Shown here: positions 24,101 to 59,483 of the stretch, piece after piece | Numbering within the stretch: position 1 is the stretch's first letter | Layout: the number at the start of each line of letters is the position of its first letter | Assembly: GCA_013115135.1 (NCBI GenBank) | Contig: JABANP010000164.1 | Coordinates: forward strand, 38,362-102,361 | Reading direction: 5' to 3' | Source of the DNA: Perkinsus olseni | Lineage: Eukaryota > Perkinsozoa > Perkinsida > Perkinsidae | DNA length: 64,000 nt | Notes under the pieces: model-generated | What the model saw: only the letters and a program-made list of their open reading frames with translations | The model's database searches: none | Told to the model about the DNA's origin: nothing | Translations under genes and position numbers: made by a program

Positions 24101-27100
24101 CCTCCGAGGGCGACAAGGATATCGATAAAAGCTTCGTGCTACGGGCCTAGGGTGATAAATTCTCTTCAGGAAAACGCATAATATCATCCGGTCCGGACCT
24201 TGCTCGTGGTATTTGCTTCTCCGTGGGGCGAAGACAGTCCAGCAGCTGGCAAAAAATCGACTCTCGCAAACCAGCGAAGTTTCATCATTACCCGACAAAC
24301 TTCCGGGTTGGCTTTCACTTCCGGAGGGGTGCTTTCCCGGTGGATCCACCGAGAAGATCCTCGAGAGACGGTAGGGCTGACAGGAAGCAGGCATAAGCAT
24401 CGGAACAAAGGAGGAGCGACACCTGTTCTGGGTCATCGGAGTTCTTCCTGAACGTCCTCACTATACCGTCATCACTAACCGTGAGAAAGCCTCCCTTCGA
24501 CCATGGTGCCATAATGCGGTACGCACCGTTGGTGGCTGTGGGGTCGATGATTAGAGATTGCCTGACCGACAACACATACCATAAAGACAGCTGCTGATCA
24601 TAAGCTGCTGATGGTATCGACAGTATTTGACCCAGTTTGGGCCCACTAGCGAGCCACTGAAGCACGGCATCCATAGGAGCATCGACCGCTGAGTAGAGAC
24701 TCGCCGGCCAAGACTCCGCATTCTACGATTCTGTTCATGTATGGCAAGTCCAAGCTTCAGATTGACGAAGCTAATTATCGGTTACTCCAACACCAAGAGA
24801 CTCGTCATAGACTGCAGGGGACCCACAGTCCAAGACGAGGATTGCAATGAGTGATGACGGTCGTCAGAAGGACAATATTACGGTCTACCGTGGTCTCCGA
24901 TTTTATCCGGCAGTCCTCATATTTCATATCGCAATCCTCAACGGTCCGCACTCTAAGGTAACTTGGACGCGCTACTTAGTGTGCTTACTTAAACCGCGCT
25001 CGGTGCGGACTGAAGTCCGGCGGACTCTCACAGCCCGACACGGAGAAATGCTCGGATAAGTCGTTCATAACACCGCCCGTAATACGAGTCTCTTGGCGTT
25101 GATTGGATTTCGCTCAAATCATACAGTAGCAAACAGTGCGCCATGACATGACGTGGGTGATGCATTTGCCAGGGCGGCGCGCCGCGGCGTGTGAGCAGGT
25201 TGAAGCAACGAAAAGATGCGCCTCACAGCTTACTTGAACACTCCGTACTCGTCGAAAAGCAGAAGCTTCCCATCCGAAGTCCCACATATGACGTCGCCAG
25301 CCTGAAGGTGGTTAGCTCAGGCGTCTCGTGGAGCGAGGGCAGCCCCACTTCAGTCCAAAGATGACTGGTGACTTCGAATCCGGAGGGAGCATCAGATGGA
25401 AAGTCCTGTTCGCCCATCGAGTAATGATGTTCTTCGGGCAAACACTTGAGCTGCTCCTGCACAGGTATCTGTGGAGACACCGTGATGCGACTACAGTCAC
25501 CTCTGGCGCAGAGGCTCTGGGCCATTTCTGCCAACTGTGCGCAGCGTCTGTAATCGCGCATTAGCCCCGACCAATAGAGAATACACGAATTTCGTGGCAC
25601 GAACGAAGCAACACGGGTCCCCGCGAACTCCATTTTTCGTGCTGAGAGTTTAGCACAACGTTGAGCTGCTAGATTCACTCGAATGACACAGGAGCGAGAT
25701 GTGGGACCACAGAAGCCCGACTCTCACCGCCGCAGTGATCTCTCCAGCAGGGGATACGTGATGAACGGCGACGAAATTGACTCCGGTGGTGCATAGTTTT
25801 ATGCCATCCGAGACAGAAAACGAGACACAAGAGGGCTGAAAGAGAGATGCATCATTACGGTGGGAATGATGGGAATCCGAACTCACCACAGCTCTCAGAT
25901 CTGACGGATAACCGTCCAAGAGCCGGACGCTAGCCGTCATTCGCCCTTGGTCCCAGTCCTGCAGATACGATGTGTACCGCAGGGCGACAACACTGCTCAC
26001 CCAGCAGGTCAATCTGTAGTCCGGCCCGGATCCACACTCCGCCATTGGTTGATGATGTCCTTCGGCTGGGCTAAGCTGCGAAGTATCCGGGTGGACTTTC
26101 GACAGAGCTACCAGATACCTACAGACCCGAGAGCGTATGAAATCCAAGACAGAACAGCACTGCCCTTCTTCAGTGAACGCCTTCAATCAATCATGACATC
26201 CGAGGCAAATTGCTCCAATCGATCAATCATAGACGTTCGCTTACTCTCACAGATACACCCTAAAGTCATCGAGAAGTGGTTGGATTTACTGCATATTACT
26301 ACGGGTTGCATCCTTACTTGCTCTCCCCTGCAGAGAATGCCATGCAGTCCACCTCCCTCACTCCACATTCAGTTCTCAGGGTTTTCACTCTCTTAGACGA
26401 GGCCAGATCGAACACGCTGACGATGGCCTGCTCAGAGTGGCGCTCACCCACAGCCAAGTACCTGCGGATATGCCTCCGGTAGCATATCAATTGGAAATGA
26501 CGATGAAGTGCCGAAGTGCCGGAAGGAGCAGCAACCAAAATCTCTAGCCATCGGCTACAGAGTCGCCTCGCCGCAATGAGGATGAGCGGAACGCTTAGCT
26601 ACTCGGGTCGAGTAGCTGTCGAGTAACTCGACCCACTCCCGCTCAGCTGAGATTGTAGTGCAGCTGATCCCTAGGGCTCCCTTCGTAGCAGGCATGAACG
26701 TTTGCGTCCGCTGGTCTACGTGAAGCTGGGCCTGATAAAAATCACTTGTAACCCCGGAGGGAGCGAACCCGGGCGTAGCGAGTGCACGGACTTACGATGT
26801 TATTTCCAGCAGCGTAGGCTACATGTTGATCGTCAACGAAGTGTACCTTCGAAAACGCCAATTTTATACGCCCCATCCGTCATACTTTCGCCAGTCCTTG
26901 AGGTGCTACTTCTCGAGAGAGAATGAAGATTGCATGTAACTCAGCCACGCATCGCTCTGATGTAAATGATTAGAATAACACTGACTGAATACTCGATATG
27001 GATACGGGCTACTGTCTGCCTTGGATACGCCCGATACACACGTGGCCTGAACTTCCCTACCCCATTCTTCACTTCCGACCGGATGCCGAAGGCATACCGA

Positions 27101-27132
27101 GGATGCAGGCTGACTTCTAGGCTCTCATCCAC
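18150..27132 (-). CDS. CFAP57: CFAP57 (WDR65)-like flagellar protein, multi-exon
   Basis: CFAP57 is an axonemal protein with N-terminal WD40 repeats and a long C-terminal coiled coil; in other species it takes part in inner dynein arm assembly and bend control. The minus strand from ATG at 27132 gives MDESLEVSLHPRYAFGIRSE, then an exon with FVDDQHVAYAAGNN, which resembles the conserved HFLDEQTVIYPAGN region. WD blades follow (RYLAVGERHSEQAIVSVFDL near 26440, WSKGGFLTVSDDGIVRTF near 24480, LFTCGEDGCVYVFEIR near 21770). Next come coiled-coil exons with family signatures: YSEEVLMTKTALDEK near 21430 and MDYKIKELKAQVGPKEGDI near 19600. The last exon encodes RRTIAELREKIRGREEIIRN and stops at 18150. 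Many short introns separate the exons and I have not fixed every junction; one near 26.7 kb contains a tRNA T-arm. A second, decayed copy lies upstream in the window. Confidence 0.82.
26732..26795 (-). other. Intron with tRNA T-arm core (CFAP57)
   Basis: The intron starts GTAAGT after GNNI and ends TTTTTATCAG (or six bases later at GCCCAG). Its middle carries CGCCCGGGTTCGCTCCCTCC, a B-box/T-loop with one mismatch to GGTTCGANTCC, followed by a T5 tract. Orientation is the same as the gene. Confidence 0.7.
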
Positions 27133-27243
27133 TTGCTTAGTATTGGCAACCTGACCTCCACAAAGACAGTGGGCCGGCGATTCAAGAAACTGCCTAGTGA
27201 AGCAGGCTATGGGAGGGGGGCAGGCTCTGTCATAGACCGCTAA

Positions 27244-27640
27244 TCAAACGGGACACTCGGTGCCGAACTGAATCCTCATTTCCTTTGCAAAATGAAGTCT
27301 CGCAGCATTCTGAGTGCTGTTCGCTTTCCCAGCGTCGTCCAGTACCAAAGTGCACAAGTACTTCATACACTCTTTCTCATTCGGTACGTAAGTTCGAGCT
27401 AGAAAGTGCAGTGGGAATTGAAGGCTGGTCACTCGCGATTCCCTTCCGGAACGTCTACGACCCAATCATACCTCGGTTCTATCAACTGCTCCAGCGCTCC
27501 TACTCGTGGCCATTCAGAGGTGCGAACAAACAACTGGAAGGCTTTCTCTCCTTCGACCTCTGCTCCTCGCGATGCACGTCCTCGCGACGAGCTACCGTGC
27601 CCTCCGTGCCGTGAGGATCAGCGCTCGATCCCCATAACCT
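27244..27640 (-). CDS. Small protein, two or more exons, unknown
   Basis: The minus-strand exon AFQLFVRTSEWPRVGALEQL ... DVPEGNRE ends at a GTGACC donor. A roughly 34-nt intron ending TTTCTAG leads to ARTYVPNEKECMKYLCTLVL ... FAKEMRIQFGTECPV and a stop at 27244. The upstream start is not resolved: a TGA precedes the first exon in frame, so another intron is likely. It fills the 630-bp gap between the CFAP57 start and the mannosidase stop. I recognise no family. Confidence 0.45.
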
Positions 27641-27762
27641 CGGAGTCTCTAACCCCTTTTCAATTTACAAGTAGCACAGCTCACAGAAGCAAGCGGCTGA
27701 AGCCATGAGATGTCCTGCTAAACCTGTCAATCACAATCTTCCTGCCTCGCCGCCAAAGACAG

Positions 27763-30700
27763 CTACGTAGGTATAGCATACGGATGTCCTTCAGTGTTGA
27801 GAACGTACACGCTGTGATGCAAGAGCGTACCGTCCTGCACGCCAAGACTCTCACCAATGGAGTCCGGGGAGAAGAGGAGGTAGAGGTACTTCAAGGTCTC
27901 TGAAATTGGATCGGATGCTTCATTCCAAGGATACCGCAACAGCGCTCGATTGACCTAGTCTCACAACGCCTATACCCTTCGTCGCAGGCTAGATAGATAC
28001 GCCGGAATCTCCCAACCGCGCGAGATGCAGCAAGACATCCTCAATAGGACGGAGGCAGTCCTCGGGAATCCCAACGACACCAGCTTTCCCCGTGGAATGA
28101 TACCAGAAAAGAAGTAGGTCGGTTGCCATCCTGTATAACTGCCGGACTTCCTGACGTTGCCCAGTGAAGAATAACCATAACGTGTGCGCGCATGACGCTC
28201 GAGTGCTCGAGCCATACGCCAGCCAGCTTCTCTGTAGTACCTCAGTTATCAAATTAGACGTGAGAATGCGAGTGAAAAGTCTCAGAGCGTGAGAATGACA
28301 CCCCATTGATTCAATGCCATGCGACCACTTAGACCAGACGTCGCTTTTCGAGCATCCATACGAACGAACCTTGCGGAACCACCATTGCTCTGGCCCAGCG
28401 GTTCAATTGGAAACCCCATGAGCTCACCAATCTCCGGTGGCTCTCCACATGTACCACAGAGCCTCAATAGCCTCTGGTCTGAGAAGATTGTGCATGGCGC
28501 CAACGTCGTCCACTAGGCCGTGGGCGTCAAAGCGAGTTATCTCCGGGGCCAAACCGGTCTCGGAGATTCTTGAATACCTGAGGAGAACATGTTCACCACG
28601 CTACAGCAGAAGGACAGTAGTGCCTCAGTCCGCAGCAAGATCAAGCAGGCGATTAAAAATTTCATCAATCGGTAGACACATCAGGGTATTGCAACATTGG
28701 TGCTTACATTGATATGGTAATACGAAGCGATTTGAATACAATGGCTATATAAAATTTGGCCTACATGAGCTATGTTACGGTATGTGTTTGCGAGCATGCT
28801 CATGCGATCAACAGAGCCTTCATGCACTGAGAAAGCCCAGCCATACCGCCTCAACTCACATCCCTATACATGCTGAGGTGAGGTTTTTCGCCCAGTCAAG
28901 CTCTTGATCGATACTGAGGGTTCCGCCAGTTGACACTTGCAGATCCTCGAAAGCCGTTGATGTGAGCCAACGCTCCCTCGTTGACGGCGAATACGAATCC
29001 GATCTGAGTCGAGGCACAATGGAGCCATGTAAGCTCAAAGAGACCTTTGAGTGAACGGCCCAGCAATGCCTTGCCGCCCGATTGCCAGCCACGCACTATC
29101 TCACAAATGAAGCTCGAAATGACCCTCCTGTTGGGCTCGAGAAGCGAGCTCACCCGTACTCGTTATGGTCTCTCCGAACGATGTAGTCCAGCGCTAGAGA
29201 TCCTGGTAGAAAACAAGTGAGGTGGTCCATTTTCGGAACCGACCAGTAGAGTTCGAAACTGACATCAGAAAAAATGCCCCGCTAGGCCCAAAGATGCTTG
29301 AGCAGGGACGCGTAGCGACCGTGGGCAATCTCTGGGAGCTAGCACATCGTTAAGGGCGGAGACCCAAGTTATATCATCCTCACTACTCAGCGATGCGGTC
29401 TTGTCCCACACCGTCCACTTCAGCATGCGAATTGAAGTTATGATAGATCTTATACAGGCTGCTGTGCCAGCTTCTCAGTAACGAGGAAACGCTCTTGCCT
29501 CCCAGGATCCACTCCTTTAACAAGTACCTAAGCATGGAGAGCTCTATGATGTACCTGGCCCACTGCTTGAGCTGATAACCCGAGGGACGGCCATGGCCTA
29601 CTCGTAGTGGGAGTCGCCTCGGGCTCCGAGACCTAGTTTATTTCCGGGGATATCTTTGAAGTCATCCATCCCCTGTGGAGCTAGCGGCAGTAGCACCGGG
29701 AGAAGTCCGCCGGCATCAACATTGTAGTGTGTTCGCAATAGCGCACGAACCTGGCACCAGAAAGCCGCGATTGGCAACTCGCGAACAGAGAAGCAGCAAG
29801 CCAGTACTATTCATCTGCAACCCATCGACCCGAAATCAGTCCATCGTTTGCACAACTTGGACTCTCAAGCGGCTGAGGTGTATAAGCGACATAAGACCCC
29901 GACTCTCAATCTAGCGAGGCCTGTGTAGCAGTGGGTTAAGCTTCCGGCACCGCTCGAACAAAGTGCAGGCCCGCTACCGCAGCAACGTGCATTCTTAACG
30001 CCATAGCGCTCCACTTCGAAGCGCGATAGATTCGACACTCGCCAATGAGTTCGTTCTTATACTATCCATACGTTGGCGGCTGCCTCGGCGAAAACAGGCT
30101 TGCCGGTGACCATTGTGGCCGCTCTGAGATCGAGGCCGACGTTTGCCTCCGATAAACTAACGTATCCCCCAAGCAGAGCGCCTTCCCCTGCCAACAGAGC
30201 AAAGCATGAGTCTTCGGCCACAGTATTCTCGCACACACCTGTCGCAAGGTTGATGTCCGAATACGGTAAATGTGGAGTCTTTCTCTCCCGGTTATTGGCG
30301 TGAGGGTAGAACGCCTTCACCAACCTCAGCCCGATATCCTCAGCCATCTCGGCCAGCATGGCTCTCTGGCGAGAATCAGGAACCGCCAGGGTCCATCCGC
30401 CCAGGTACCTGAGCGGAGGTGAGACGCTTCCTAGCAATGCCCCATACGATGCTGCCACGATGATTGAAAATATGGTCGGACTCGCCCAGATTGGAATGTA
30501 TTAACCGAGGAACATCCCTGACAGACTCTCGTGAAGCCTCCTGGGGGAGGAAAGGCCCGAAGCGTTAACTTTCGGCCACCCTTCAGGCTGCTTGCTACCA
30601 CTCCTTTCCCATCTCACCCGCCTAGTATCCGAATCGTAGACTCGAAGGTATTAAGAGAAAGATTCTTGCTATGAGCCTCTCTGTAATGCTGATGGAGCCA

Positions 30701-30960
30701 GTCGACAGCCCGATCAAACTCGGCTCGCATGCCCATCAAAGCCAGCGTGTCGAGAGCGTCGACCATCGTCAAACTGAGGCCGCCCCAGTTGTCGACACCT
30801 GCGGAGCGGAAAGAAGCAGGCAAGAAAGCAGCTATGAAGAATGCCACCTTCCCCAGACAGAGTATTAGTCTCATCAGCGCCAAACGCGACGGCTTCATAC
30901 CGTCCATAGGCGTGCTGCATCATTCCTTCTATCGCCTGTTGCCGACGATAGGAGTTCTCG
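27763..30960 (-). CDS. GH47 alpha-mannosidase, EDEM type
   Basis: EDEM-type glycosyl hydrolase 47 proteins trim mannose from misfolded glycoproteins in the ER and send them to degradation. The minus strand shows the expected order: an N-terminal helix ending QAIEGMMQHAYGRYEAVAFGADE; a 47-nt intron; DNWGGLSLTMVDALDTLALM and NTFESTIRILGG; IGLRLVKAF ... HLPYSDINL near 30.3 kb; then LLEPNRRVISSF near 29.1 kb and GWRMARALE with LWLFFTGQ near 28.2 kb. It ends with ETLKYLYLLFSPDSIGE ... YVLNTEGHPYAIPT and a stop at 27763, matching the family's usual final blade. Several junctions between 28.3 and 30.0 kb are not resolved. The signal peptide exon upstream of 30960 was not found: the first seen exon begins after TTTTAG. 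It may be a pseudogene, but motifs are well kept. Confidence 0.75.
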
Positions 30961-32429
30961 AGGAGCCACTAAAACACCAATAAGACCAATAACAGCTCTA
31001 CTATTGAATGTCATGTTGAACCGCTAGGCGCCCGGATACAGTTTTAAAGGGTTCCGGGCCTAGTCAACTGACAGTATATCCGTAGACGACCTTGCCCTAA
31101 CCCCCTCTAAGCCGAGACCGGGCCGTCGAGAATGGAACGAAGCAACATTTCGAGCCCAACACAATAGAATCTCCCTGAATCCGAGGCGTAAAACTGAGCA
31201 CTCCCACCAGCATCCGGGGAGCGGAGCGCTGTGAGCGCTCAGGTTAGCCCGGGTCGCAAATCGCCACCTGCCCAGTCAGCCGATCGATGTTGGCTCACCT
31301 CTCGGAAGTCCAGACACTCGGATGCCAAGAACGGGCATCTCTTGAGATGGACAATATCGCCATAGGCCCGCTGCGTTGCTCTGGACGCCCAAATAGAAAA
31401 CTTCTTACTGTGCTGAACGGATGGAGATAAAGGAAGACATACCTGAACGATGGAAAACTAACTGTCGGAGCAAGGCCGAGGGAATACTGTATAAATGAGC
31501 GGGAGCGTTATTCCAAAAAGTTCGCCGCATCAGGAGAAGGAGTTACCAACCGGACTGAACCGTTCGCCGCGGACTCACATCAACGGGGCCACTGTCCCAT
31601 AATGAACCTGGTTCTGCAAGTGGGTCGAAGGCTGCTGCCACCCACGCCGAAACAACAACGGCAAACAGATGAAGTAGCATTTGTTGAGACAAAAAATCTG
31701 CTCAGGACATCGGGTTGAGAGCTGGTCTAGAAATGTCCGAATTAGGCGACTGAACTCAACAGCATTCGAGCGACAGAGCACCAAGAACCTGATAACGATT
31801 GATGATTGTGAAACATTGTCTACTTCCAAAAAAGACCTAGGTTTGAATATTATTAAAAGAACCCACTGCTCGAGAGCAGGCTAGTGAGGGACCACCCGGG
31901 GACAACAGTAACGACATCCTTGAAGGAACAAGGGAGTATTCACTGGTATTCCCAACGAGGCGGTGGCACAGACATCATGATGATACTATTATAGTGGTTA
32001 CAGCAGTAGCAGCAGCAGCAATAGGAGGCAAATTACTACTAGGCCAGCAGTACAGAGGAACGTCACGATCATACAGAGCAAATTAATGATGATAGTCGCT
32101 GACGGAAGAACCGAAACGGCGGCCACCAATTTACGGGAGATGAGATTTCGAGGGTTGTTGTGGTAGTTCATGTCAGACTGTCGAGAATGGGCAGAATGAT
32201 ATTTGAAATGATGAAGGTACTACTACAATCATATTAGGCAACTTAATACGAGCAGTCGACGGCGGTACGATGAATCTATCTAGCGGCAATAAGATGGACT
32301 TCATAGTAGTGGGGACAATAGTCTGCCACTGTGAATGAAGAACGAGGAGGAAGAGAGAAATTACTATCAAAACCACACGAGCATTCGCCACAGGCTGATG
32401 CCTCTGAATTCATCATCACTGAACGACCA
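30961..32429. other. Spacer between mannosidase and Mei2-like gene
   Basis: No convincing gene. The first exon of the mannosidase should lie at the left end. The right part (about 31980-32400) is probably 3' UTR of the Mei2-like gene and contains a short CAG run (about 32002-32024). A minus frame at 31575-31829 has no motif. Confidence 0.45.
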
Positions 32430-34303: not shown

Positions 34304-34560
34304 TCAAAAACGAGACATCGGGCCCGTGCGACATGTGCACGCGTGCGCAAAGATGCGCCAATGAACATGCGAAGATTCCCACCGCACTGCACTGAATTCC
34401 TCCTAGTAACTCATCCAGAGATTGAAGGCCTAGTCCCTATAAAATCAATACTAGCCGAGAGCACTACTAGAACGAGCCTAATGAACGCCGTCATATCCCG
34501 GTGGGTGGAAGAAGGTTTTCATTGTCACCCACTTGGGACTGTTCGGCCATACCGATGTCG

Positions 34561-34590
34561 GGACCAGGAACTGAACCCGGGTGAGTCCAC
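34561..34590 (-). other. T-arm-like sequence between genes
   Basis: On the minus strand CCCGGGTTCAGTTCCTGG forms a 5-bp stem and 7-nt loop like a tRNA T-arm. No matching 5' acceptor strand or D-arm is present within 90 bp, so it is not a whole tRNA. It lies in the gap between the kinase stop and the Mei2-like start. Confidence 0.4.
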
Positions 34591-34734
34591 AGGAACAGAC
34601 AGAAGTACCACTTCTTCAAATCGCGACCCTGGTAGTATCGCCCCCTCATTGAATGACATGCTCAAGCCAAGGCCATTAACACAGGTGTATAATATTACAT
34701 CACTAGACAGTCAAAATGGAAGTCAGAAATGCTA

Positions 34735-36763: not shown

Positions 36764-36794
36764 AGAATAAATTCAATTCTGAGACGATATATTG

Positions 36795-37020: not shown

Positions 37021-38880
37021 CTACTGGTCCTTCAAACGACCTGCCGCCTCGCCCACTGGCTGCCGTTGCTTCTGGCCGGCATCTTCTCGCAGTACCGCAA
37101 CGATTCTAGCAAGGTACTCGTCCTGAAAGGCGACCACGAAATTAGTCGGAAACAACACCTATCATTCACAGTGTGTAAAACCGAGCGGCAAACCTACCAC
37201 CTTGCTCACCTTTCGCTGCACTAATGCCCGATACCGTGCCACAGTGTCCCGGAGCATATCCGACTCCGCCTCGAGCTCCTCCACCTTCTCAGCATTATGG
37301 AACGCTGTCAGCTCATCACATAGCGAGGCGCCTGAACATGAGACTCCCTACAAGGCTGACAACGGTACGGGAATGTACCGAAGGACCGCCCGGCCGAGGA
37401 GGGGGAGCAGCTGGGCCTGAGGAGCATCGCTGCCACTACCACCCCCTGCACGGTGACCTACCGTGACGTACTGGGGTCACCTCCGAGGACCTTACTAAGA
37501 CGCTCTACCAACTGCTCCTTATCCCGCTCTAGCTCGGCTACTTTGATGGTCAGCGTGTGGACGACACTGAGGAGGCCCTCCCATACCCGTCCACAGCCGC
37601 ACACCTACTCGTCGGTCCTTGTTCGATCCAGACCACCAGCGGCGGTGTCGGGGCTATAAGGCAGTAGCCCGTCCAAGACAATGGCCGGGGTAGTACTGCT
37701 ACACCAGGTAGGGCTGGATGCTTCAGTGAACCCCCCAGGGGAAGCAGGGGGAGGTTGACGAGGAGGGGAAGGCGTTGGCGACAGCGTTACACGCAGGCTC
37801 CCCTCCGCCGAAGATCCTATCAAAAGTGCATCCCCAAATACAAGCGAACTGGAAGCATTTCACCCTCCGGCGACTTCGTCTCCGCCCCAGCGGCCGAGTC
37901 TGGACTCCCGCCGCCCAGTAGGCCTGTGGCAGATTCGGTGGACAGCCTTCGTAAGAGACTTTCCCTGTCTGTCAGAAGATCCGCTGCTTGCCGCTTCAAC
38001 TGTACATTATCAGAATTCGCCTTGTCCAAGTCCGTCCGCATGCGCGACAACTCATCTTGAAGGTTCCGATTCTGAGGCCACTGAGATCGGGAGAATCTCC
38101 AAGGGGATCCACCCACGGTATCTTTCAAGGATTTGACCTCCTGGTCAAGCCGGAGGATCTCGCTCTCCTGATGCTCCATATACCTAGTCACGATTTGAGG
38201 GAAATTTGGTACGACTAAATCTGCGCATTGACTCACGCCTCGCTTTGGTAGCTGAGCATCGAAGTAACACTATTGCGCCTTGACAAATGACTCCGAGCAC
38301 TATTAGGTGCAGTCACGGAACCCTGAGGTCCAGATATTCGTCATACCATCCCTTCCCCAAATCGAGACCGTTTCTGCCCTACTACGTCTTGCTCGGCCGA
38401 CGTCTCCCCGGCCTTGCGCTGTAGCAAGGTCTCCAACCGAATTACCTCCTCCGAGAGACGACGGTTCTCTTCGGCAAGCCGCAAGGACTGCATAAAATGA
38501 AACCCTTCCGTATGCCACTGTAGGTCAGGTTACACTTCTGTCCGCAGAGCTCCGAGCCTCTAGCTGCCTGTAGTACTCCCATACACCTAATGAAAGTGAG
38601 GAAGCACCCAGGTTCGATCCCCGGTACCGGTACTACTCCGAGTAGCAATAACGGTTTCTTCTGCCTTATCCAAGCCAGCCTTGGACAGTAACTCCTCCAC
38701 AGTCCAGCCTCCTCCCGCTCGTACCGTAATTGAAGCAGCTGGTCGGGAGGCGGAGCGAAGCACTTCTATCGGTATGGCATTCGATGACATTACCGGAAAC
38801 TCCTTCGGATGATCGTCACGGAAAAAGTTGGCCAGGACTGCGCAATCTTGCTTTCTTGCAATTTCTCAACGTGACGGAAC
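37021..38880 (-). CDS. Coiled-coil protein, multi-exon
   Basis: Minus-strand exons, in order: an exon with EELLSKAGLDKAEETVIATR; a 50-nt intron (38587-38636) carrying a T-arm in antisense; SVWEYYRQLEARSSADRS; SLRLAEENRRLSEEVIRLET with LLQRKAGETSAEQ; VTRYMEHQESEILRLDQEVK; NRNLQDELSRMRTDLDKAN with a Gly/Ser-rich linker; KVAELERDKEQLVERLSKV; NAEKVEELEAESDMLRDTVA; and DEYLARIVAVLREDAGQK, ending with stop TAG at 37021. Almost every segment is a heptad coiled coil. The start is not fixed. A GGCGGAGCGAAGC motif lies in an intron near 38.75 kb. It could be a cytoskeletal or centrosomal scaffold, but nothing identifies the family. Confidence 0.6.
38587..38645 (-). other. Intron with antisense T-arm, spliceable on either strand
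   Basis: On the minus (host gene) strand the intron is 38587-38636, GTAGTACC ... TTTCATTAG, 50 nt. On the plus strand an equally good 50-nt interval exists (38596-38645, GTGAGGAAG ... CCGAGTAG). The T-arm CCCAGGTTCGATCCCCGG reads on the plus strand, so here it is opposite to the host transcript. Confidence 0.7.
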
Positions 38881-42862: not shown

Positions 42863-43939
42863 TGCCGATCCCCGAGCACCAGCAACAGGTGACTGAGAAT
42901 CAGCCACTGATGGCCTCGCGCCCCTACGGCGAAGGGATGCCGGCACCTATGGTACAGCCGTAATCTACATCGCTAGGGATTTCCACTCAGGCTGTGGGCA
43001 ACCAAGCTGGTGCCGCTTTGCAGCAGTTGGAGGTGGCATTCTTCTTCGCTGCTCTAGGTGAGCTGTTTGTGCGGTGATTTATACTACTGCTAGAATTTCC
43101 CGAGTCCAACGTTCCCGAATCAACCGATGAACTCATGGACTTAGGCACAGTAGTGGCGGGGGTATCTTCAACCTTGACGACGGCCTTCACAGAATTCGCC
43201 CCTTTCGACCTCACAGACGACATCTACCTCCTCGCCTTCGGCCTCATCATGCTTGTGGTTGATGCACCGGTGAAGCCCCGAGGGGTCCGAATTGTTCGGG
43301 ATGGCTTCCTGCGATGCCGGTCCTCTCTGTTAGCTACTCTTTTACCAAGCCTTCGTCAGTCGGTATGTGAAGTTCCTCACCAGGCTTACAGGCAAAGGCT
43401 TCTGGTGAGTCTCGGGTTCGAACCCCAGCACGGGTATTTTTCCGAATAGGTACGTCTTTCTAGGCATCCATGTTTTCATAGCTCTCTGGACCAACGATGC
43501 CTGGCCCTTTGCTGGGCTCATCCTGGGTCCCGGTATTTTCCTTGTCGGTTGCGCTGGAGCGTACATAGGAATGGCCAAGACTCGAGCTCTCGATGCTGTG
43601 AGAGGCGACCGGCTCAACACACAGCCACCGACTTGCCGATCAGGTGGCTCGGAAGCTGGCGGTCCAGAGCCCCGAGCAACTATCTCTACTATATAAGAAC
43701 AACGCTCTCTCCCATATGAGCGAGGGCCTCACTCAAGAGGAATTCAACAATATCGCGCGTTAGTTCTGCCCAGGTTCGATCCCGGCATGTGTCATTTATT
43801 CCGCTCAGGTAACAACGCCGCTATAGTCTTCGCTCCCGAGGAGCTGAGCCTCATCTTCAACGCTATCTGTGATGGGCGACGGTTCATCACCCTGCGAGAT
43901 CTGGCGGTCTGGCTGCAGGGCCCAAGAACGTTGGTGTGA
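42863..43939 (+). CDS. COPI-associated / TVP15-like membrane protein
   Basis: This family of small multi-span proteins sits in Golgi and COPI vesicle membranes. The model starts MPIPEHQQQVTENQPLM; one early junction near 42953 is unresolved. Later exons run EVAFFFAAL, a 36-nt intron, then EFPESNVPESTDELMDLGTV, DDIYLLAFGLIMLVVDAPVK, LLFYQAFVSRYVKFLTRLTG with KGFW, YVFLGIHVFIALW and a last hydrophobic span GLILGPGIFLVGCAGAYIGM. The VKFLTRLTGKGFWYVFLG stretch is the family's KF....GRG.FY.F.G signature. The tail EGLTQEEFNNIAR ... LIFNAICDGRRFITLRDLAV ends at TGA 43937-43939. Two introns, 43405-43449 and 43759-43808, each contain a tRNA T-arm core. Confidence 0.75.
43405..43449 (+). other. Intron with tRNA T-arm core (COPI-associated gene, first)
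   Basis: 45 nt, GTGAGT ... CCGAATAG, splicing KGFW to YVFLG in frame. The core TCTCGGGTTCGAACCCCAG matches the GGTTCGANTCC B-box except at one base and is followed by GGGTATTTTT. Confidence 0.88.
43759..43808 (+). other. Intron with tRNA T-arm core (COPI-associated gene, second)
   Basis: 50 nt, GTTAGT ... CCGCTCAG, splicing NIA(R) to NNAAIVFAPEE in frame. The core CCCAGGTTCGATCCCGGC has the T-loop TTCGATC between a G/C stem; CATTTATT follows. Confidence 0.87.
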
Positions 43940-50492: not shown

Positions 50493-51242
50493 GCAGCAGG
50501 CTGCTATTGGTGCTGCGACGAAGTATATGTTAGTTCAATTTCGAAACTACTATCTTTGCCGTCTACGATCTTGAAGCGATATCATGAAGCGTTGCACCAT
50601 TACCACTCTCATCGCTCGCACGAGTTGGAGCAAGTTCTGAGTGGATAGATTTGTTCATATGCTGTTTTGGTGTTGCGTTCGAGTATCGCCTAGTGGATAG
50701 ACTGAAATTCGAACACCTTCAGCTTGGGCGCTGGAGACCACAAGGCCGGCTTCGATTAATGTAAAGTTCTTCATCGACATCCGCAGTGAGGTGCTGCCAG
50801 CAACGCCGTGCCGTGCTATGTTCAATTAGGCGTGACATCACGAGTCCATCCACCAGCGCTCACAACAGCTGATGCATCCACGCCTTTCAGCACTGGTGTG
50901 GAGATGGGCACCAACCCACACCGTTGTTGCGGCTGCACTGGTTCAGTTTCGTGACTGCTGCTGCTCGCCCGCGGGCCGCGGCCGATTGCCCCATTTCAGA
51001 TATAGGTTCCTCACTGGGAGCAGTGCACCAGGACTTCCTCAACCAGTCAGAGTCGATGCGGGTTTTTCAGAATCAGTACTAGATCTAGATTTAGACGAAG
51101 TTCATCACCCACTCAGTGTTCGTGAGGCCAACTCTGCTGAGAAACCTCGAAACTAAATAACTCAACGCATGTCACCAAAATCAAACATGCGGTATGAGAT
51201 CTCAACGATAGCATCTTTTACCCATGCTGTAACCCAACGGAG
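50493..51242. other. Spacer, no clear gene
   Basis: Convergent spacer between a plus-strand oxygenase and a minus-strand propeller-like gene, probably both 3' UTRs. A plus frame at 50872-51156 ending DLDLDEVHHPLSVREANSAE could be an exon but has no partner. Confidence 0.5.
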
Positions 51243-52361: not shown

Positions 52362-52524
52362 TGAGAGATTATCTCAGAAAGAGACTTCCAAACAGCATGC
52401 ATACACGGCAGTAGATTGTGAGGAACCGGCAACCCCAGTCGGACGGCTCAACGAGGGCTAGCCGCTCAACTTCTAGCCAAACATTGACTCGTCCCGATCT
52501 CCCTAACGCAACAACCCAGGCCCA

Positions 52525-54197
52525 TCAACCAGCGCTTAAAAGCTCGTAACATGGATTAAAGCAATGTTTCTCATCTGCGGCAGTACTGCGTGTCCGGGCC
52601 GTCTCCGGTGTTGACTCGTTCAGGCGCTTCCTGTGAGCAAGTGAGGTGACCGTTTTCACCGAGTTCGACACTCTACACGTCTTCAAATCATCCTCATCCG
52701 AAGTTATGTCCTTCTTCAAAAGCTCCACAGGATCTTTAGGAGCCGCTCGTTCGTTCAATCGCGACAAAATTCGTTCCGCTGCGTTGCGTACTGAAAACAC
52801 CGCAGGCGAGTCCGAGTCACCGGCCGAGGACACCGAGCTGGTCTCCAACTCCTCAACCGTGATTCCTTCCTTCAGCAGCTCCACGTCAGCTCTCAACGCC
52901 TTTCTGAAGTCCTCGTCTGTGCCCGAACAAAGTCGCCTTAAGTGCTTGACGTATGCTTGTAGACGCGCAACGTTTACTTCCTCCCTCTCATCGGGTGGTT
53001 CGAGCTTTGTGGAAACATACTCCTCAATCGCCCCCTCCTCAGCTCCAGCCTGACTGATGTCATTCTCGCAAACCACAACCCGTGCACGCAGCCTCCGGCC
53101 CGACACGCTGAGCGAGTTTACCGAAAGCAAGGGTCCCACGCGTTTCTTCCAAGTCCCTCGGTCGGTCGGTAATGCACAGACACACCGCCACAGGCTGGTC
53201 ACCGACAATCGCGCCGTGGAGTAATCTCGTAAGAGCTGACTCGCGTACTGGCGGCTTCTGCCCGTCCGAAACCGCCTTGAAGCAGTGTGACAGCCAGCTG
53301 AGGCTGAGGTTGATCGTTTTGGTTTCTGTGATGCGATGAGCCGCTTGAGAACTGCCGTGCTTGGCGAGGCGCTCGCTGCCTGCCAAGTCCACTATAGTCA
53401 AAGTCCGGGCCCCAACCTTGATGTAGAAGAAGCAATGACTTCTGCTGCTCAGGCTGTTCCCTGTCGTCGCTGACGTCATCCGATGGGAGGCGCACCTCCG
53501 GACTGAATCACAAAACCCTGTCGTGTTGGTTATCCGCAGCCAGCCAATGTCAACTAGACTATGAGACCCTGCTCGGTTGCCTAGAAGGCGAGGTTTTCGT
53601 TCAGGGAAAAGGAGATCTCTAATTTGGCCCTGGTAAAGCTCCGCGCAGCTGATGAAGATCTCAGGGCTCCTACAGGAATCTTCAGCCAGTATCCTGAACA
53701 TAACCCCGACCGATCTGGGAAGAATCCCGGCGGAAGCGGCATCGTCGGTTTTCGCGCTATCGATACGGCCTCGCCAGAAGCCGGGGTCCCCAAAAACTGT
53801 CCTTGTTTTTCCAGCACCGGTCTGACCGTAGACCAGAACACAGGCGTCGGATAGGCCTGCAAATGAACAGAGAAAAATGCATCATGTCGGGTTCGAACCT
53901 GGGTCAGAAGATCTACGCCTACCAGTGGCCACTGAGTGTACAGCCCTCGAAGCGACTCTGTGATACACCTCCCTCTGGTCCGAGTTCGGCCCCTCCCCGT
54001 CAATAACCGCCGCAAAGCCACTATAGTCGGTGGCCGGCGAGGCGCCTCGAATTCCGTCACGATCTGCTGATACCTGATCGAGGCGAATCAGCTGTACTTG
54101 CCAAGGGCTGGCCACTCACCAAAACTGATGACGAGCTTTTCTTCACCGCTACGGGCGGGGCTTCGTCACAGCGTCGCAGCCTCACTATGACATTCAT
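52525..54197 (-). CDS. Kinesin motor protein, small
   Basis: Kinesins walk on microtubules using ATP. The start MNVIVRLRRCDEAPPVAVKK at 54197 is the usual first motor strand. Exons continue EVYHRVASRAVHSVATG, a 76-nt intron (53857-53932) and LSDACVLVYGQTGAGKT (P-loop). Next come FISCAELYQGQIRDLLFP, NSLSSRSHCFFYI (switch I region), IVDLAGSERL (switch II, 53371-53396), INLSLSWLSHCFKAVSDGQ, and SALTRLLHGAIVGDQPVAV with RGTLAFGKLAQRV. The motor is compact: several surface loops are short, and some sequence around 53.5-53.75 kb is spliced. The C-terminal frame (52525-53100), acidic and coiled-coil-like (ARLQAYVKHLRRLCSGTDED), is joined by a one-base shift near 53100, so either the protein ends sooner or a small indel is present. 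The intron next to the P-loop carries a T-arm. Confidence 0.85.
53857..53932 (-). other. Intron with tRNA T-arm core (kinesin)
   Basis: 76 nt on the minus strand, GTAGGCG ... CATTTGCAG, joining SVATG to LSDACVLVYG in frame. The core GACCCAGGTTCGAACCCGAC (53885-53905 region) is a T-arm with loop TTCGAAC; a T5 tract follows. Confidence 0.87.
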
Positions 54198-54632
54198 ACT
54201 GACTAACCGCTGCCACACTGTCGACGGTGTAGGCCCGGAACAGTCCAAGGCTCACCAGAACGATTAACAAACCAAAGCAAGGGTGCGTGATAGTGTAAAT
54301 GTCGTTACGGCGAGTGGGGGAGATCACTCTCATGAAACGGTATACGCTGTTACTTAATGCCAGATAGGACTGTAAGTTGGATAATCCTCGGATACTGTGA
54401 TATCGTCTTGCGAAGGGCTTATCTCGATCATCATCCGTATAATCTCGAAAAAACTATGTTATAGTACACAACGGGATATCTCATAAAACAAGCGAGAATC
54501 CCGAAAGCTTCCGGCAAGCGCAGACTAATGACGGTCAGTACTTTAAGGAAGCAAACGAAGCTGCAGACTTCAGTGGATCCCTCTGAAGCGAACAACCAGA
54601 TTTTTCGCGGTTAAAAATAAGACTAAGTGAAA

Positions 54633-55049
54633 CTATGTCACAGGCGATTCGGTCGAGATCTCGACCGAGGCTTGGGTGCTGGCGATGCTGTCCGTCGTGA
54701 CGGACTTCGCGAAGCGGACATGCTTGGTCGTGGTGGAGGGGGACTTCCGCTGGTGAACTGCTGCAATAGAGCTCGAAGGAGTTTCACCTGCCACACAGCG
54801 TAATGATGCCGCATAGAGACGAGGACTACCTTCGTTTACGCCCTGAGAATCGTTCACTAGACCAGTCGCCCGCCGCGTGTCGCCCAACCTCTTCAGAGTA
54901 CCAAAGGTGGATGCCCTATCAATAACAGAAGGGGATGGAGATACTCTGATGAATACAGGCAACGAGGCCATCGTTGGCCGAGTGACAGAAGAACGGAAGG
55001 GAGGTCTGGCCTTCTTCTGGAAGCTTGAACAACAGCCGGACGGCGCCAT
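54633..55049 (-). CDS. Ser/Thr-rich hypothetical protein
   Basis: Minus frame of 138 codons just downstream of alpha-SNAP, rich in S, T, R and P (SSSIAAVHQRKSPSTTTKHV, RFAKSVTTDSIASTQASVEI). It has no domain. It could be a real small gene or part of a longer spliced one; a mate exon was not found. 54198-54632 upstream of the kinesin start holds nothing recognisable. Confidence 0.35.
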   Translation of the reverse strand: MAPSGCCSSFQKKARPPFRSSVTRPTMASLPVFIRVSPSPSVIDRASTFGTLKRLGDTRRATGLVNDSQGVNEGSPRLYAASLRCVAGETPSSSIAAVHQRKSPSTTTKHVRFAKSVTTDSIASTQASVEISTESPVT

Positions 55050-55207
55050 GCAAGCGATAACACTACATTACGTTCAACATACTACCATCCATCAACGCAA
55101 CAAGATAGACAGCTGTCGGACCATATAGAAGAGACGCGTCTTGAAATGATAGTTGCCTTCGGACTGGCCGTCCAGACTACACAAAATCCGCCAGCGTGAA
55201 GGGTATC

Positions 55208-56665
55208 TTAGGTGAGGTCGACATCATTAACCTGATTCTCGGCACTGGGGGCCATGATCTCCTTGACCTGACGAGAATACGCTCGAGGTACCCTTGGACG
55301 ATTCTACAGTAGGCCACCTTGCAGAGCATCTCTGTCTTCCAAGCATCCAGTCTGGTCACAGAATCGTATCTGTTCACGTGAGCACATATCCATACCATCT
55401 CTTCCCAAACTCATCCTACTTGTGTAGTGCATCGACGAAGGCATCAACATCATTGTTCGAGAAAGCCTGAGTGATATCCTGCAGCAGCTCCCCTTCGCGC
55501 GAGGTTGCCAGTCGGGGATCTTCCGATATATACCTACTCCCCACCAAATCACCAACGGCCCTTCGCCCGGACCTCTCACCTTTCCACTGCTATACTGGCA
55601 GTGACGGGATCGCCAGCGCACATCCACATGATGCCCGCCTTCAAGAAGTGCTCCCGAGCGCCAAACTGGAGCATCGAATTATGCAAAGCCTTTTCCCCTA
55701 TCAAAATCCGTCCAATCAGAGGCGGTCACGAGGACGGCAACGGACCTTCCTTTTCGAATATCTTGGCGGCGTCTTCGTACTTCCCAACCTCAGCGGACAG
55801 CTCAGCCACCTTGAGCATGCACTGGGAATGAGGCGCCTTGCTGTACCTAACTCGAGGGGGATGCCGCACGGCCAGTGGGGCCTGATCTCTTACTCGTCCA
55901 TCTCAAACATGTCGGCCGCTTTCTTGTAGTAGGCCAGGGCCTCCTCAGACTTCACATCGATATCCTCCTCGGACATCTCGGCAACTGCACGCATGCACAT
56001 CACAGAACGCCTGGAACGCTGCCCCCCCACACTACTGGTTCGTAGTATCTTCCCTCCCGCTTGGAATCGACCAGCCGAACTGTATATCTTCACAGCGTGT
56101 TCGTACCTTACCGTGGAGTCCCCGAATCGCCAACTTTATCCATCCCTCACTAGTCCTGCAACCACTACTAATACTTGAGCACTTATATCCAGCAAGGGAC
56201 ATGCGCGCCTCAAATTATGGCGAATGTAAGCCAGTGCGCTCTATCCTTGCGAGCGCGCTACTACTACCACTACTACCATGTTATAGCATCCTTAATTCTC
56301 TCAGCCCGCCTGAAGGCGTTGCCGGCCTCCTCGTAGTAGTGTGCCTCGTCAGAAGCCGAGCCGTACTTACCCATCATCTCCCCGGCCAGGACCTGACACA
56401 ACTGTCACAAACAGCGAGGGAGAAGGGCGAGGGCTCACCAGAGTCTCGGCAGCCCTGTTCCAGTCCTTGGCGAGTTTAAACTGGTTGGCGGCGTTCTTGT
56501 ATAAATCGGCAGCCTCATCATAACTCGGCCCTCCACCGAGGAAAGAGAAGAGACCCTTCGACTAAAAAAGCGGCATTTTTCCAGTGGGAAGAGAATGACA
56601 GCCATTACGCCTTGGGCCTTCTTCTCGGCTTCCTTTATCATATCTTCAGCCTGTTGGACACTCAT
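55208..56665 (-). CDS. Alpha-SNAP, NSF attachment protein
   Basis: Alpha-SNAP recruits NSF to SNARE complexes for disassembly after membrane fusion. Start at 56665: MSVQQAEDMIKEAEKKAQG, the usual N-terminal helix. Then FLGGGPSYDEAADLYKNAAN with QFKLAKDWNRAAET, the strongly conserved first TPR-like repeat; AHYYEEAGNAFRRAERIKDA near 56.3 kb; further helices at 55.5-56.0 kb (SEEALAYYKKAADMFEMDE; ALHNSMLQFGAREHFLKAGI); ELLQDITQAFSNNDVDAFVD; and the final exons YDSVTRLDAWKTEMLCK and VKEIMAPSAENQVNDVDLT with stop TAA at 55208. The YDS..RLD.WKT..L motif is diagnostic. Introns are short GT-AG; the two last are 49 and 51 nt. Several middle junctions are approximate. Confidence 0.9.
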
Positions 56666-56819
56666 ATCACGTAAAAAATACACTGACCAGCGGCAGCGGT
56701 CTCCCCGAGAATTGAACCAAACAAAAACAGAGAACCGAGAAGGAAAGGTTATAAAAATTTGATAACATACGGAGCCTACTGCAACGACGACTGGCCTGGG
56801 ATGCCGAGTCGACCTTCTG

Positions 56820-57480
56820 ATGAGTCACAAGACTACTACTAGAAATCGGTGTTACGTCGAGGAATGCGACAAGTTCGACCAGTGGGGCCCGCCCAAGATT
56901 CATGTCTCATGAAGAATGGATGGTTGCCAAAGTCGACGGACATGATAGAAGCATCGGGGTCCGTGGTGGCGTTCCTGACTGCCGACGTGAGTGTCTGTTT
57001 ATTAACATGTACATGGGGCCTCCCAAGCCCTAGGCGTTGACACAGCAACTCGGTATGTGTACGGATACGCCTGGGGTCAGCCGAGGCCAACAACGATAAG
57101 AACTGAAAGGGAGATGCGTTCAAGCCGGTGACCGGTGGTATCACTTACCCTTTCCTCATCCTCGGCGAGGAGGTTGTTAGGAGTAGCATCGCCGTGGATG
57201 GTGCCCCTACAGATCTGATCAAGCAAGGCGCTTCTGAGGAGCTCGCTGCTGATGGCCTTGTCGCTGTCGGGCTTCTCCGTAGTGGCGATCACTCTCAACT
57301 CCTCGCTGGCCGACACGATCTTCTCGGCCGTCGGGAGCTCTTCAAACTCGTCGGAGAATTCATCGGTCTCTTCGACCGGAGCTCTCGGGAGGGTTACTCT
57401 CCTTCTCGAATGCAGTCTGAGTTGCCATTAGACGCTGGGCTCACGAGAACTGCACGCGGGAACAAGACCGATCATGCCGA
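56820..57480 (-). CDS. Unknown protein, multi-exon
   Basis: The minus strand near 57.37-57.15 kb encodes EETDEFSDEFEELPTAEKIV, followed by SEELRVIATTEKPDSDKAIS, SSELLRSALLDQICRGTIHG and AEDEER, ended by a GTAAGT donor. A second exon near 57.0-56.87 kb gives SAVRNATTDPDASIMSVDFG with NHPFFMRHESWAGPTGRT. The first exon upstream of 57.38 kb is unclear. Acidic N-terminus, no recognised domain. Confidence 0.4.
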
Positions 57481-57669
57481 TGCGGACATAGTAACCTGAC
57501 GCCATCACTGCGTGTATGCTACCCTATGTTACATTTAAAGATGTTCAGCAGGCGGCTTTCGAGGTTCGGGGCTGCCAACACCAAAAGCATCGTTATCGCG
57601 CTTTAACTTATCCTACTATACTGAGTTCCAAAAAAGATGTCCTCGAAGATCGGAAAATAAGATCGCGAG

Positions 57670-57760
57670 GCGAAGGCGCGACGCGTTCAAGCAAAGCACC
57701 CGGGTTCGATTCCCAATGAGCGTATTTTGATTTTCTTTCTTATTCTATTTTTCGCGAAGT
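57670..57760 (+). other. tRNA 3'-half-like sequence
   Basis: CACCCGGGTTCGATTCCCAA (about 57697-57716) fits a T-loop/B-box exactly and is followed by GCGTATTTTG and more T-runs like a Pol III terminator. I searched the preceding 100 bp for a D-arm, anticodon arm and 5' acceptor strand and found none, so it is a fragment of the same family as the T-arm introns, or an intron of an unresolved gene. Confidence 0.45.
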
Positions 57761-57888
57761 TGCGCTTTAAAGTGTTTCAACGTTACAAAACGGAAGCAAA
57801 CACTGTCAAATACCTTTGAGACCACTCCTGACGCTACTCGTGACGCGGTAGCTTGCACGTCAGTGACACGAGGTCACGTCCCGGTAAA

Positions 57889-58095
57889 ATGGGCGATGAT
57901 GACGTCGGCTGCGGCTGTCCACAGACAAGATATGAGACTGCGGCGTTGTTGGTTGTATACATTCTGTTAGAGCTTATTGTTAATTTGAATATCTTTCTGT
58001 ACCCTCTCATGACGCTCCGTGACCATCTCGGACCAGAGCAGCCTCGAGACAACGAGCTGCGCTTCTTTTTACCAACTGATGATGCATCAGTATGA
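57889..58095 (+). CDS. Small single-span membrane protein, putative
   Basis: Open frame MGDDDVGCGCPQTRYETAAL followed by a strongly hydrophobic segment (LVVYILLELIVNLNIFLYPL) and a charged tail ending DDASV then stop at 58095. The ATG at 57853 is an alternative start. It may be a first exon of a larger gene; no homology is claimed. Confidence 0.35.
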   Translation: MGDDDVGCGCPQTRYETAALLVVYILLELIVNLNIFLYPLMTLRDHLGPEQPRDNELRFFLPTDDASV

Positions 58096-58107
58096 AGCGA
58101 TCAACTA

Positions 58108-59483
58108 TTGCCGCTAACGAATGGTGTAACTCAGGCCCTCGACGTGCTTAACACGAGAAAGGTGGACAGCGGAAGCTCAGATGCTTCAACGGCGACTGAA
58201 TCGGTCCACAGTAGCAGGCATGGTAAGGCAGCCTGCTCAAAGAGCCTCGGTAGACCCGGTCAGGTCCCCACTATGCTATCGACGCCATCGTGCTGTGTAA
58301 CGAGGATGAGAAGTCCTCACTGGCCCTGGACGCTGCCAAGGAGATGCTGCAGGACTGGTCGCCGCGTGACGCCGATCGACCTCGCGGGAACTACCGTGGG
58401 AAGCCCATTCATCAGCTTTCGGCGGACTTGCTCTTCCTCCCAGAAGTTCGCATCATCCACTTGTGTACCATGTCCGCGGTCGTGTCCGATTCGGCAAGGC
58501 TGGGCTTCGCCGATTGTATCACATCGTGTGGATGCACTGCCAAGTTCACTAACATCATCTCATCGTGGAAGATTCCCGTCGACGTGCGGGTCCAGGTAGG
58601 CTCGAAGTGGTACTCGTTCGAGCTACCTTGATGCCTTCTCGCCAGTCCGTCGTCCCAACTTTCTCTACTCTCCAAGAAGTGCTTCATTCACCAAGAAGGG
58701 TGAGTTTCGGCAACTACCAGCAATAAATCCACTTTGCATCGCCTCGAGGTTGTCGTCTCCCCGCTTGCTGTTTACCACGGCCCAAGCTCCTCCAAGCAGC
58801 TGCATCACTCTAAGCTCCTCGACTCGATCATTCGACAGACGCTTACGCTGGCTGAGGGTCTTCAACCGCCACCGCAGCAGTCTGCGGATTCTGGTGAGGC
58901 CTCGCAGCCTCTCTCTGGTTAATTCATGAACTTGTGTGATATCCTCAGAATCTCCCTGGGCCGTTCCTGAGGAAGAAAACTCGCCGCCTCGAGAGGAGCG
59001 CTACAGAGCGGTGAGGGTCTCGGGTTCAATCCCAAGCATTGTCACTTCTCTGCGTGAAATTCAGGTACTGCTTCTTGCAAGCGAAAAGTGGGAGCCCGTA
59101 GTCGACTGGGGCGTCCGTCTGGCGAAGCTCGGCGAGTCCATCAGAGTCGTCCACTTCATCCGAGGGCCCGACGTCCCATCTCAGTCGGCTGAGATGCAAC
59201 TAATGGCTCGGCGACGGGTGAGCTGGTCTGATCAATCATCAGCCCCTCAGGAGCATCTCAGGCACGCATCATAGACCCGTCAGTTCCCTTCGACATTCAC
59301 GTCGTTCGTATTGATCCGGGAGAGTTTCTGACCAAAGTCGTGGAGCTCTCGAAGAAGACGGAATTTTTAGTCGTTGGCGACTCGGGAAGGGTCCAGACGC
59401 GGCATAGAGACATCGTGAGGAGGCCTCGGTCGCGGCATCAGTCCAGCACTCAGGCCTCGTCAGATTCTGCAAGCCCAGTGTGA
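58108..59483 (+). CDS. Universal-stress-protein-like (HUP fold) repeats, multi-exon
   Basis: Three successive segments share an alpha/beta layout like USP domains. The first: YAIDAIVLCNEDEKSSLALD, VRIIHLCTMSAVVSDSARL and KFTNIISSWKIPVDVRVQVG (58274-58610). The second: VVVSPLAVYHGPSSSKQLHH (from about 58740). The third: VLLLASEKWEPVVDWGVRLA with SIRVVHFIRG, ARIIDPSVPFDIHVVRIDPG and KKTEFLVVGDSG (59065-59370). Two introns in the last part are clear: 59011-59064 (with a T-arm) and 59218-59261 (44 nt). The stop is TGA at 59481-59483. USPs bind ATP or act in stress responses; the G-2x-G-9x-G nucleotide motif is not evident. The assignment is by fold-like pattern only. Junctions between segments one and two are uncertain. 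Confidence 0.45.
59011..59064 (+). other. Intron with tRNA T-arm core (USP-like gene)
   Basis: 54 nt, GTGAGG ... GAAATTCAG, splicing EERYRA to VLLLASEKW in frame. The core GTCTCGGGTTCAATCCCAAG has a T-loop TTCAATC in the same position as in the COPI-associated gene's first intron (GTCTCGGGTTCGAACCCC). Confidence 0.87.

Follow-up and report, generated by a model that had tools for sequence, protein, structure and literature searches.

The origin of new introns is an old and still open question, and it is raised in concrete form by a 64,000-nucleotide stretch of the genome of Perkinsus olseni (contig C73, positions 38362-102361; hereafter the window), in which short predicted introns of unrelated genes share a block of letters that reads like the 3' part of a transfer RNA (tRNA) gene, including the B-box, the internal promoter of RNA polymerase III (Pol III) that coincides with the T-loop. 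A sequence-only reading of this DNA had proposed that six such introns derive from a tRNA-like mobile element that inserts into genes and is removed by splicing. Did these introns arise from pieces of tRNA genes, or did the tRNA-like letters come to lie within them by another route? We followed the motif through the window and the 61.48 Mb of genome searched (968 contigs); splicing was inferred from sequence throughout, so that all introns discussed below are predicted ones. Our results favor the first answer, and we consider it probable, though far from assured, that there is a family of short elements that stem from tRNA-gene 3' halves and would be spliced out as introns of 40-80 nt in either orientation.

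The tRNA-like motif and its place in predicted introns

The earlier judgement that chance convergence on so specific a 10-mer is improbable was borne out. Exact matches to GGTTCRANYCC number 8 in the window, compared with a mean of 0.54 and a maximum of 3 in 100 dinucleotide shuffles, and a weight matrix derived from 46 copies outside the window yielded six strong hits within it (at least 20 bits; 38611+, 43415+, 43773+, 53899-, 57703+ and 59023+), where 0.0 are expected. With one mismatch allowed, the excess in the window is not significant (19 matches, a number reached by 15 of 100 shuffles). An enrichment across the genome, as the proposal implied, is likewise evident: the B-box 11-mer GGTTCGATCCC occurs 1189 times, as against 27 for the reversed control, and GGTTCGAACCC, a word that overlaps itself on the two strands, 725 times as against 29, both genome-wide counts taking in real tRNA genes. 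In addition, the element core is found in 39 of 347 predicted introns, far above the 8.1 obtained with shuffles, many of the loci having been chosen by the motif.

This last figure would also be expected if the B-box-like letters were a splicing signal, such as a branch site or an enhancer, that had been reached by convergence. However, such a role appears highly improbable in view of where the copies lie. We placed 48 of them (from contigs C1, C7, C8 and C10-C17, taken in the order listed, some being passed over) by means of a home-made, crude gene finder that was trained on open reading frames and blind to the motif. It assigned 21 copies to introns (11 in sense and 10 in antisense orientation) and three to exons, leaving 24 unassigned, at a base coverage of 14% for introns and 31% for exons (binomial p 7e-7 and 3e-5). 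Accordingly, 27 of the 48 copies were placed outside introns; moreover, the motif occurs in both orientations, and no such motif is among the 25 top 6-mers of the introns that lack the element.

Within the window, five of the six intron sites named in the sequence-only reading clearly contain the element, while the site in a CFAP57-like gene is weak; four of the six are recovered by the gene finder. One of two further fragments outside clear genes is strong (57703), the other weak (34567-34577). The sites are as follows:

26732..26795, minus strand: intron of a CFAP57-like gene with a weak sense element, GGTTCGCTCCC (matrix 7.8 bits)
34556..34627, minus strand: weak, possibly full-length tRNA-like relic (ARAGORN, odd anticodon; 34567-34577 reaches 14.8 bits in the matrix)
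38587..38636, minus strand: predicted antisense-type intron of a coiled-coil gene, with the B-box at 38611-38621 on the plus strand (matrix 31.7 bits)
43405..43449, plus strand: intron 1 of a COPI-associated gene, sense element, 45 nt (gene finder)
43759..43808, plus strand: intron 2 of the COPI-associated gene, sense element, 50 nt (gene finder; matrix 27.5 bits)
53857..53922, minus strand: kinesin intron, sense element, 66 nt (gene finder; matrix 25.6 bits)
57694..57735, plus strand: copy outside predicted genes (26.9 bits in the matrix; left unassigned by the gene finder)
59011..59064, plus strand: intron of a USP-like gene, sense element, 54 nt (gene finder; matrix 24.3 bits)

The junctions had been said to restore conserved protein, which holds for the CFAP57-like gene and for both introns of the COPI-associated gene but not for the coiled-coil gene, which lacks a protein match. 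Joining YAAGNNI to AQLHVDQRTQ in the CFAP57-like protein gives ungapped alignments to axonemal chains, a WD-repeat chain (E 1.3e-4) and CFAP57 itself (E 0.0015); this site is thus supported as an intron, but its membership in the element family is doubtful. The sole match in a search with the COPI-associated protein is a Perkinsus marinus protein (PF08507) with 79% identity, and the two align without gaps across both junctions (GKGFW/YVFLG and NIA/RNNA). The spliced kinesin matches the Pfam domain Kinesin (PF00225, E 8.1e-40), with the end of its intron corrected from 53932 to 53922, and the spliced protein of the USP-like gene has no Pfam match. The coiled-coil intron, previously given as 38587-38645, is best read as 38587-38636 on the minus strand, where it runs from GTAGTACC to CATTAG and the reading is open on both sides (...EETVIATRS/VWEYYRQLEARSS); it was missed by the gene finder. 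Since the element is antisense at this site, the claim of a T-rich tract near the 3' splice site fails there. An Rfam tRNA scan of the window returned zero matches and was equally unproductive at a permissive threshold.

Conserved proteins encoded outside the window provide further evidence. Removal of a sense element from a kinesin gene (locus L002) joins GQT to GSGKTYTMG, ungapped to KIF7, and removal of an antisense element from an SNF2 gene (L097) joins VLLT to GTPIQNNLQELW (LLT/GTPIQNN), ungapped to DDM1, both matches being proteins of solved structure. Pfam matches span the junctions of sense element introns in a thiamine enzyme (L014) and in a dynein (AAA_6, L103). For a calcineurin-like phosphatase (L007), the gene finder predicts three element introns, two in sense and one in antisense orientation; the antisense junction and one of the sense junctions fall inside the Pfam match, the third lying at the edge of the tested piece, and the exact edges of the antisense intron are uncertain, as the finder's version leaves a stop at the joint. 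In a second SNF2 gene (L094) and a WD40 gene (L033), the Pfam match stops short of spanning the junction, and the intron of a CK2-like kinase (L192) was read by eye. Predicted introns with GT-AG ends and a restored frame in conserved protein, as befits spliceosomal introns, thus occur in many unrelated genes, among them kinesin, SNF2, phosphatase, thiamine enzyme, dynein and COPI genes as well as others.

Anatomy of the element and its predicted splice signals

The core common to the copies measures about 30-40 nt and corresponds to tRNA positions about 35-73 followed by a T-run. When 52 copies, 3 of them real tRNA genes, are aligned on the B-box, the block reads as a tRNA 3' part, with the variable loop AAGGTC, the T-stem and loop, the acceptor 3' strand [GT]G[CT], the discriminator A and an immediate TTTT in this order. 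The T-rich tract reported behind the element is thus supported in many copies, and it often resembles a Pol III terminator directly behind the discriminator position: of the 42 copies with a TTT no more than 19 nt from the B-box, 28 have the run starting immediately after position 73. One subtype is marked by the 14-mer GTAAYCGAAAGGTC (tRNA positions 35-48), present in 39 + 35 = 74 copies, compared with 0 in the controls. Judged by its letters, the element is composed of tRNA 3'-half-like parts with a terminator rather than of a folded T-arm under constraint. The view that the elements are T-arms held by structure had to be given up, and the T-arm fold was ruled out as the conserved feature: covariation among the T-stem pairs is absent, and the folding z-scores of four sequences are near zero (0.10, 0.37, -0.89 and -0.20). 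Pairing of the outer T-stem was 0.477, as against 0.345-0.444 in slid versions.

A tRNA 5' half was sought in several ways. A search for shared upstream words that might form a longer head yielded just the GGTAATCG subtype, and the sequence upstream of 30 independent GTAAYCGAAAGGTC copies shows no clear conservation. A-box-like sites, scored with three patterns in 51 copies (including 3 real tRNA genes), numbered 4, 3 and 6, compared with 0-1, 0-4 and 1-5 in other windows. Pairing of the anticodon stem in 118 copies was no better than in slid versions (0.376 vs 0.31-0.395); a full anticodon stem is missing from 113 of them, and all five pairs are present in register only in five real tRNA genes (L040, L046, L144, L146 and L147, the last three of which were fetched as such). 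ARAGORN predicted zero tRNAs at 71 of the 74 GTAAYCGAAAGGTC copies (3 were not fetched). Neither a head with A-box and B-box, as in short interspersed elements (SINEs), nor a full-length tRNA cloverleaf was detected. Mature tRNA was rejected as the source because the T-run, and not CCA, lies behind position 73. An inosine read as G before GTAAYCG was rejected as well, the base there being G in 39, A in 18, C in 15 and T in 2 cases, with not one tRNA gene among the 71 copies that were fetched. High-scoring tRNA hits form clusters at C778:264811-310471 and C823:79646-81382, one member of the C778 cluster reading as a tRNA-Ile with the anticodon TAT.

The predicted introns use the element in both directions. 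The arrangement GTGAG-element-CAG is found 35 times in sense, compared with 0 in the reversed control, and 78 times in antisense, compared with 2, counts that include overlapping matches and tandem gene copies (for antisense, on C41, C270 and C871). Because the antisense pattern outnumbers the sense pattern, antisense hits were rejected as a null control. The proposal of a tRNA-like element that is spliced from genes therefore needs modification: short predicted introns with the element do exceed chance, but they also exist in antisense, and the tRNA 5' half is absent. Donor-like sites in the 38 nt ahead of the B-box of 84 independent exact copies are likewise in excess, with 26 in sense (4 and 9 in shifted windows) and 27 in antisense (11 and 12), perhaps in part owing to the element's own AGG letters. 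In 8 of 28 distinct sense introns, a GTGAG donor coincides exactly with tRNA positions 41-45 (p 2e-6), so that the variable loop itself appears to contribute donor letters. Eight sense element introns have lengths of 34, 42, 49, 49, 49, 54, 102 and 114 nt and are thus about as short as 98 other introns (median 53.5 nt), implying that the element fills most of a typical intron. The introns without the element are rich in GTATCT (18 vs 3.7 expected) and CGTATC (12 vs 2.4 expected), perhaps a second repeated motif. On C41, C270 and C871, the tandem arrays have a spacing of about 3.3-3.5 kb, and their units share one antisense element intron.

In the mechanism that we propose, the 3' half of a tRNA gene, from the anticodon to the Pol III terminator, would become lodged in an exon. 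In sense orientation, the 5' splice site would be provided by a GT that lies either at the anticodon (GTAAYCG) or just ahead of the variable loop (GTGAGGTC, GTAGGTC), with the T-run acting as the polypyrimidine tract. In antisense orientation, GTRAG/AAAATG would come from the complement of the T-run end, and a pyrimidine tract, formed by the variable loop and anticodon stem read in complement (GACCTTTCGGTT), would precede an AG derived from the target. As usable signals would be available at both ends, insertions either way round could be tolerated in genes and then become introns. If so, fragments of Pol III genes that can be spliced out on both strands would offer any eukaryote with tRNA genes a further source of introns. 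It is tempting to go further and speculate, as a rather unlikely extension, that these elements are introners made of tRNA 3' halves, splice-ready on both strands and retaining a working B-box, such that thousands of introns and gaps would serve as TFIIIC sites as well and tRNA genes would represent a standing source of new spliceosomal introns. The conserved B-box in introns suggests a connection between introns and TFIIIC that could be tested, and more than 1000 exact copies are enough for tests of insertion preference, splicing and selection.

Several observations weigh against a derivation from tRNA-gene 3' halves. The acceptor 7-mers comprise 73 distinct sequences in 75 copies, with diversity even within one anticodon-arm type, and acceptor 3' strands that are nearly all distinct would not be predicted by simple copying of a single tRNA; their diversity is the chief unexplained fact. 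In 33 of 75 copies, TTT is missing within 19 nt of the B-box, the T-stem lacks the covariation mentioned above, and no genuine tRNA gene carrying GTAAYCGAAAGGTC was found. The sharp 5' boundary of the element is partly an artefact of the 15-mer search key and of the GT at intron starts. Among the 11 sense intron calls of the placement test, three (L072, L078 and L104) begin inside the B-box and look wrong, and the finder also labelled two real tRNA genes as introns (L018 and L040). A stricter, earlier donor test gave a weak result (GTRAG in 12 of 51 copies vs 4-10 in other windows). Signs of mobility were sought as well, with negative outcome: target-site duplications do not exceed shuffles (p 0.11), direct repeats being only splice consensus, and no empty allele was detected when 17 introns were searched by their joined flanks, since all close second copies, available for 7 of them, bear the intron.

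Fixed B-box letters and the repeat R1

The letters of the B-box hardly change between gene copies. The 5' 14-mer led to 9 clusters that provide 12 gene-copy pairs, some of them with members in common. In these pairs, substitutions affected 0 of 72 sites at B-box positions 52, 53, 55, 56, 58 and 61 and 3 of 96 at the other positions of 49-62, compared with 18 of 134 on the acceptor side at positions 63-73 (Fisher p 1e-4 for 3/168 vs 18/134). The corresponding figures were 11/144 at positions 74-85, 19/481 further down and 19/720 in the upstream flank. Six pairs chosen by their flanks show, by eye, zero changes at the same six positions, with a change at position 62 in the USP pair. These positions are also constant in 30 of 30 independent copies that had not been selected by the B-box, in which positions 57 and 62 vary (25/30 and 26/30). 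A fixed B-box beside a changing acceptor side hints at selection: an invariant B-box together with random acceptors would result neither from copying of a single tRNA nor from random decay, but it would be expected if the B-box had come under selection once inserted.

Selection of this kind would be the whole story if the core were kept as a TFIIIC-binding B-box, that is, an extra TFIIIC (ETC) site, which ordinary introns and gaps hold because exons cannot. The 0/72 changes at the six positions, as against 18/134 on the acceptor side, favor such a scenario, as do the loss of T-stem structure and the presence of both orientations, and conserved B-box letters in the absence of an A-box are indeed what we observe. 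Human TFIIIC is reported to make base contacts at positions 53, 55, 56, 57, 61 and 62 (PMC11811891; the position mapping is ours), and four of them (53, 55, 56 and 61) are among the invariant ones. However, the contacted positions 57 and 62 vary, positions 52 and 58 are invariant though outside the contact list, and neither the 14-mer GTAAYCGAAAGGTC nor the T-run right behind position 73 would be explained, so that we regard retention of TFIIIC-binding B-boxes in ordinary introns as an unlikely full account. TFIIIC binding to the elements is inferred.

A different route is suggested by R1, a sharp-ended interspersed repeat of 312 bp. It is present in at least 41 copies, the majority nearly complete; leaving aside the locus used as query, they are 87-97% identical:

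L030:1453-1766 and no fewer than 40 further sites (C204, C134, C390 and others): interspersed repeat R1

Near its 5' end, R1 contains GAAGTCTCGGGTTCGAACCCCAGCCCGGGC and a T-run, i.e. the same module of B-box and T-run, and intron 1 of the COPI-associated gene (43408-43447) shares 87.5% identity with it over 40 nt. R1 has no Rfam tRNA match and, by eye, no terminal inverted repeats; it may carry the module or be related to it. Conceivably, then, the elements are worn pieces of larger tRNA-headed repeats such as R1 that fell into existing introns and intergenic DNA, so that no introns were created. We consider this quite doubtful: apart from this COPI intron, no element intron of the window or of the loci compared matched R1, the element fills most of an intron of typical length, and most of the examined paralogues of the kinesin and dynein genes are intronless at the sites concerned.

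Probable intron gain and relation to known systems

Presence and absence of introns were compared among gene copies within this genome. At the P-loop junction of kinesin, 11 of 13 other loci could not accommodate an intron, their surplus being 24 nt at most; the matches on C889 and C690 contain a surplus of 48 and 54 nt at some point, and stops lie inside 4 of the 13 (C889, C878, C30 and C690). At the junction of the dynein gene L103, 12 of 13 paralogues are continuous, with at most 12 nt extra and stops in two of them (C501 and C72); C59 has a different, 246-nt intron at this site, without a clear B-box. In the search by joined flanks, the intron is missing only at two more distant dynein places that are 85-87% identical (C292 and C46). 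As the kinesin paralogues mostly lack the intron, its gain appears likely; in the dynein gene, a gain is possible. Exons that follow element introns begin with GT more often than exons after other introns, and terminal inverted repeats were not seen by eye in the aligned copies. The elements would have moved as tRNA fragments. The close second copies of the 7 introns mentioned above sit on C107, C28, C512, C13 and C790. Part of the window recurs on C107 at about 70300-86200, where the exon flanks are 90-100% identical and all four element introns tested are kept; this second copy may be a diverged haplotype or a segmental duplicate.

To our knowledge, most known introner families carry the marks of DNA transposons. 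Introners, including those of Amoebophrya, resemble the introns described here in that many short related introns lie in unrelated genes of an aquatic protist and in that the element supplies the splice sites, as far as parts of two reports describe them (PMC9860276, PMC7789003). According to part of the introner survey, the median lengths range from 30 to 654 nt, the method allows for insertion in opposite orientation, families are found by similarity at both intron ends, some being identical over their whole length, and target-site duplications (TSDs), terminal inverted repeats (TIRs) or both occur in 59.2% of 130 families, families with neither also being known (PMC9860276). Our elements differ from the introners covered there in sharing a tRNA-like core of about 30-40 nt that does not reach from splice site to splice site and in that no TSDs or TIRs were found. 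The terms 'SINE', 'Pol III' and 'Perkins' are not present in the main text of that survey.

tRNA-derived SINEs are similar in having a B-box with tRNA letters and dispersed copies, but the elements have no anticodon 5' stem and no clear A-box, their T-run directly follows the tRNA part, and the introns lack a SINE body or tail. Tailless retropseudogenes, at least in the part of the literature that describes them (PMC5322556), are likewise truncated tRNA copies dispersed in the genome; they have break points in single-stranded regions and are known from therian mammals, with LINE1 and TSDs, whereas the elements are 3' halves with a T-run as in pre-tRNA, no TSD and predicted intron formation. 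ETC sites share the solo B-box without an A-box and letters conserved in place, yet here the shared letters extend beyond the B-box (variable loop, 14-mer and T-run), and many copies fall within predicted introns and have splice sites at their borders. A literature search by title and opening of the abstract, with subscription journals and preprints mostly outside its scope, found no paper on tRNA-derived spliceosomal introns. An earlier survey of Perkinsus marinus reports introns mostly below 100 bp (PMC3101222).

Elsewhere in the window, positions 16193-16586 contain a tandem repeat with a 78-bp unit, 5.1 copies and 96% matches.

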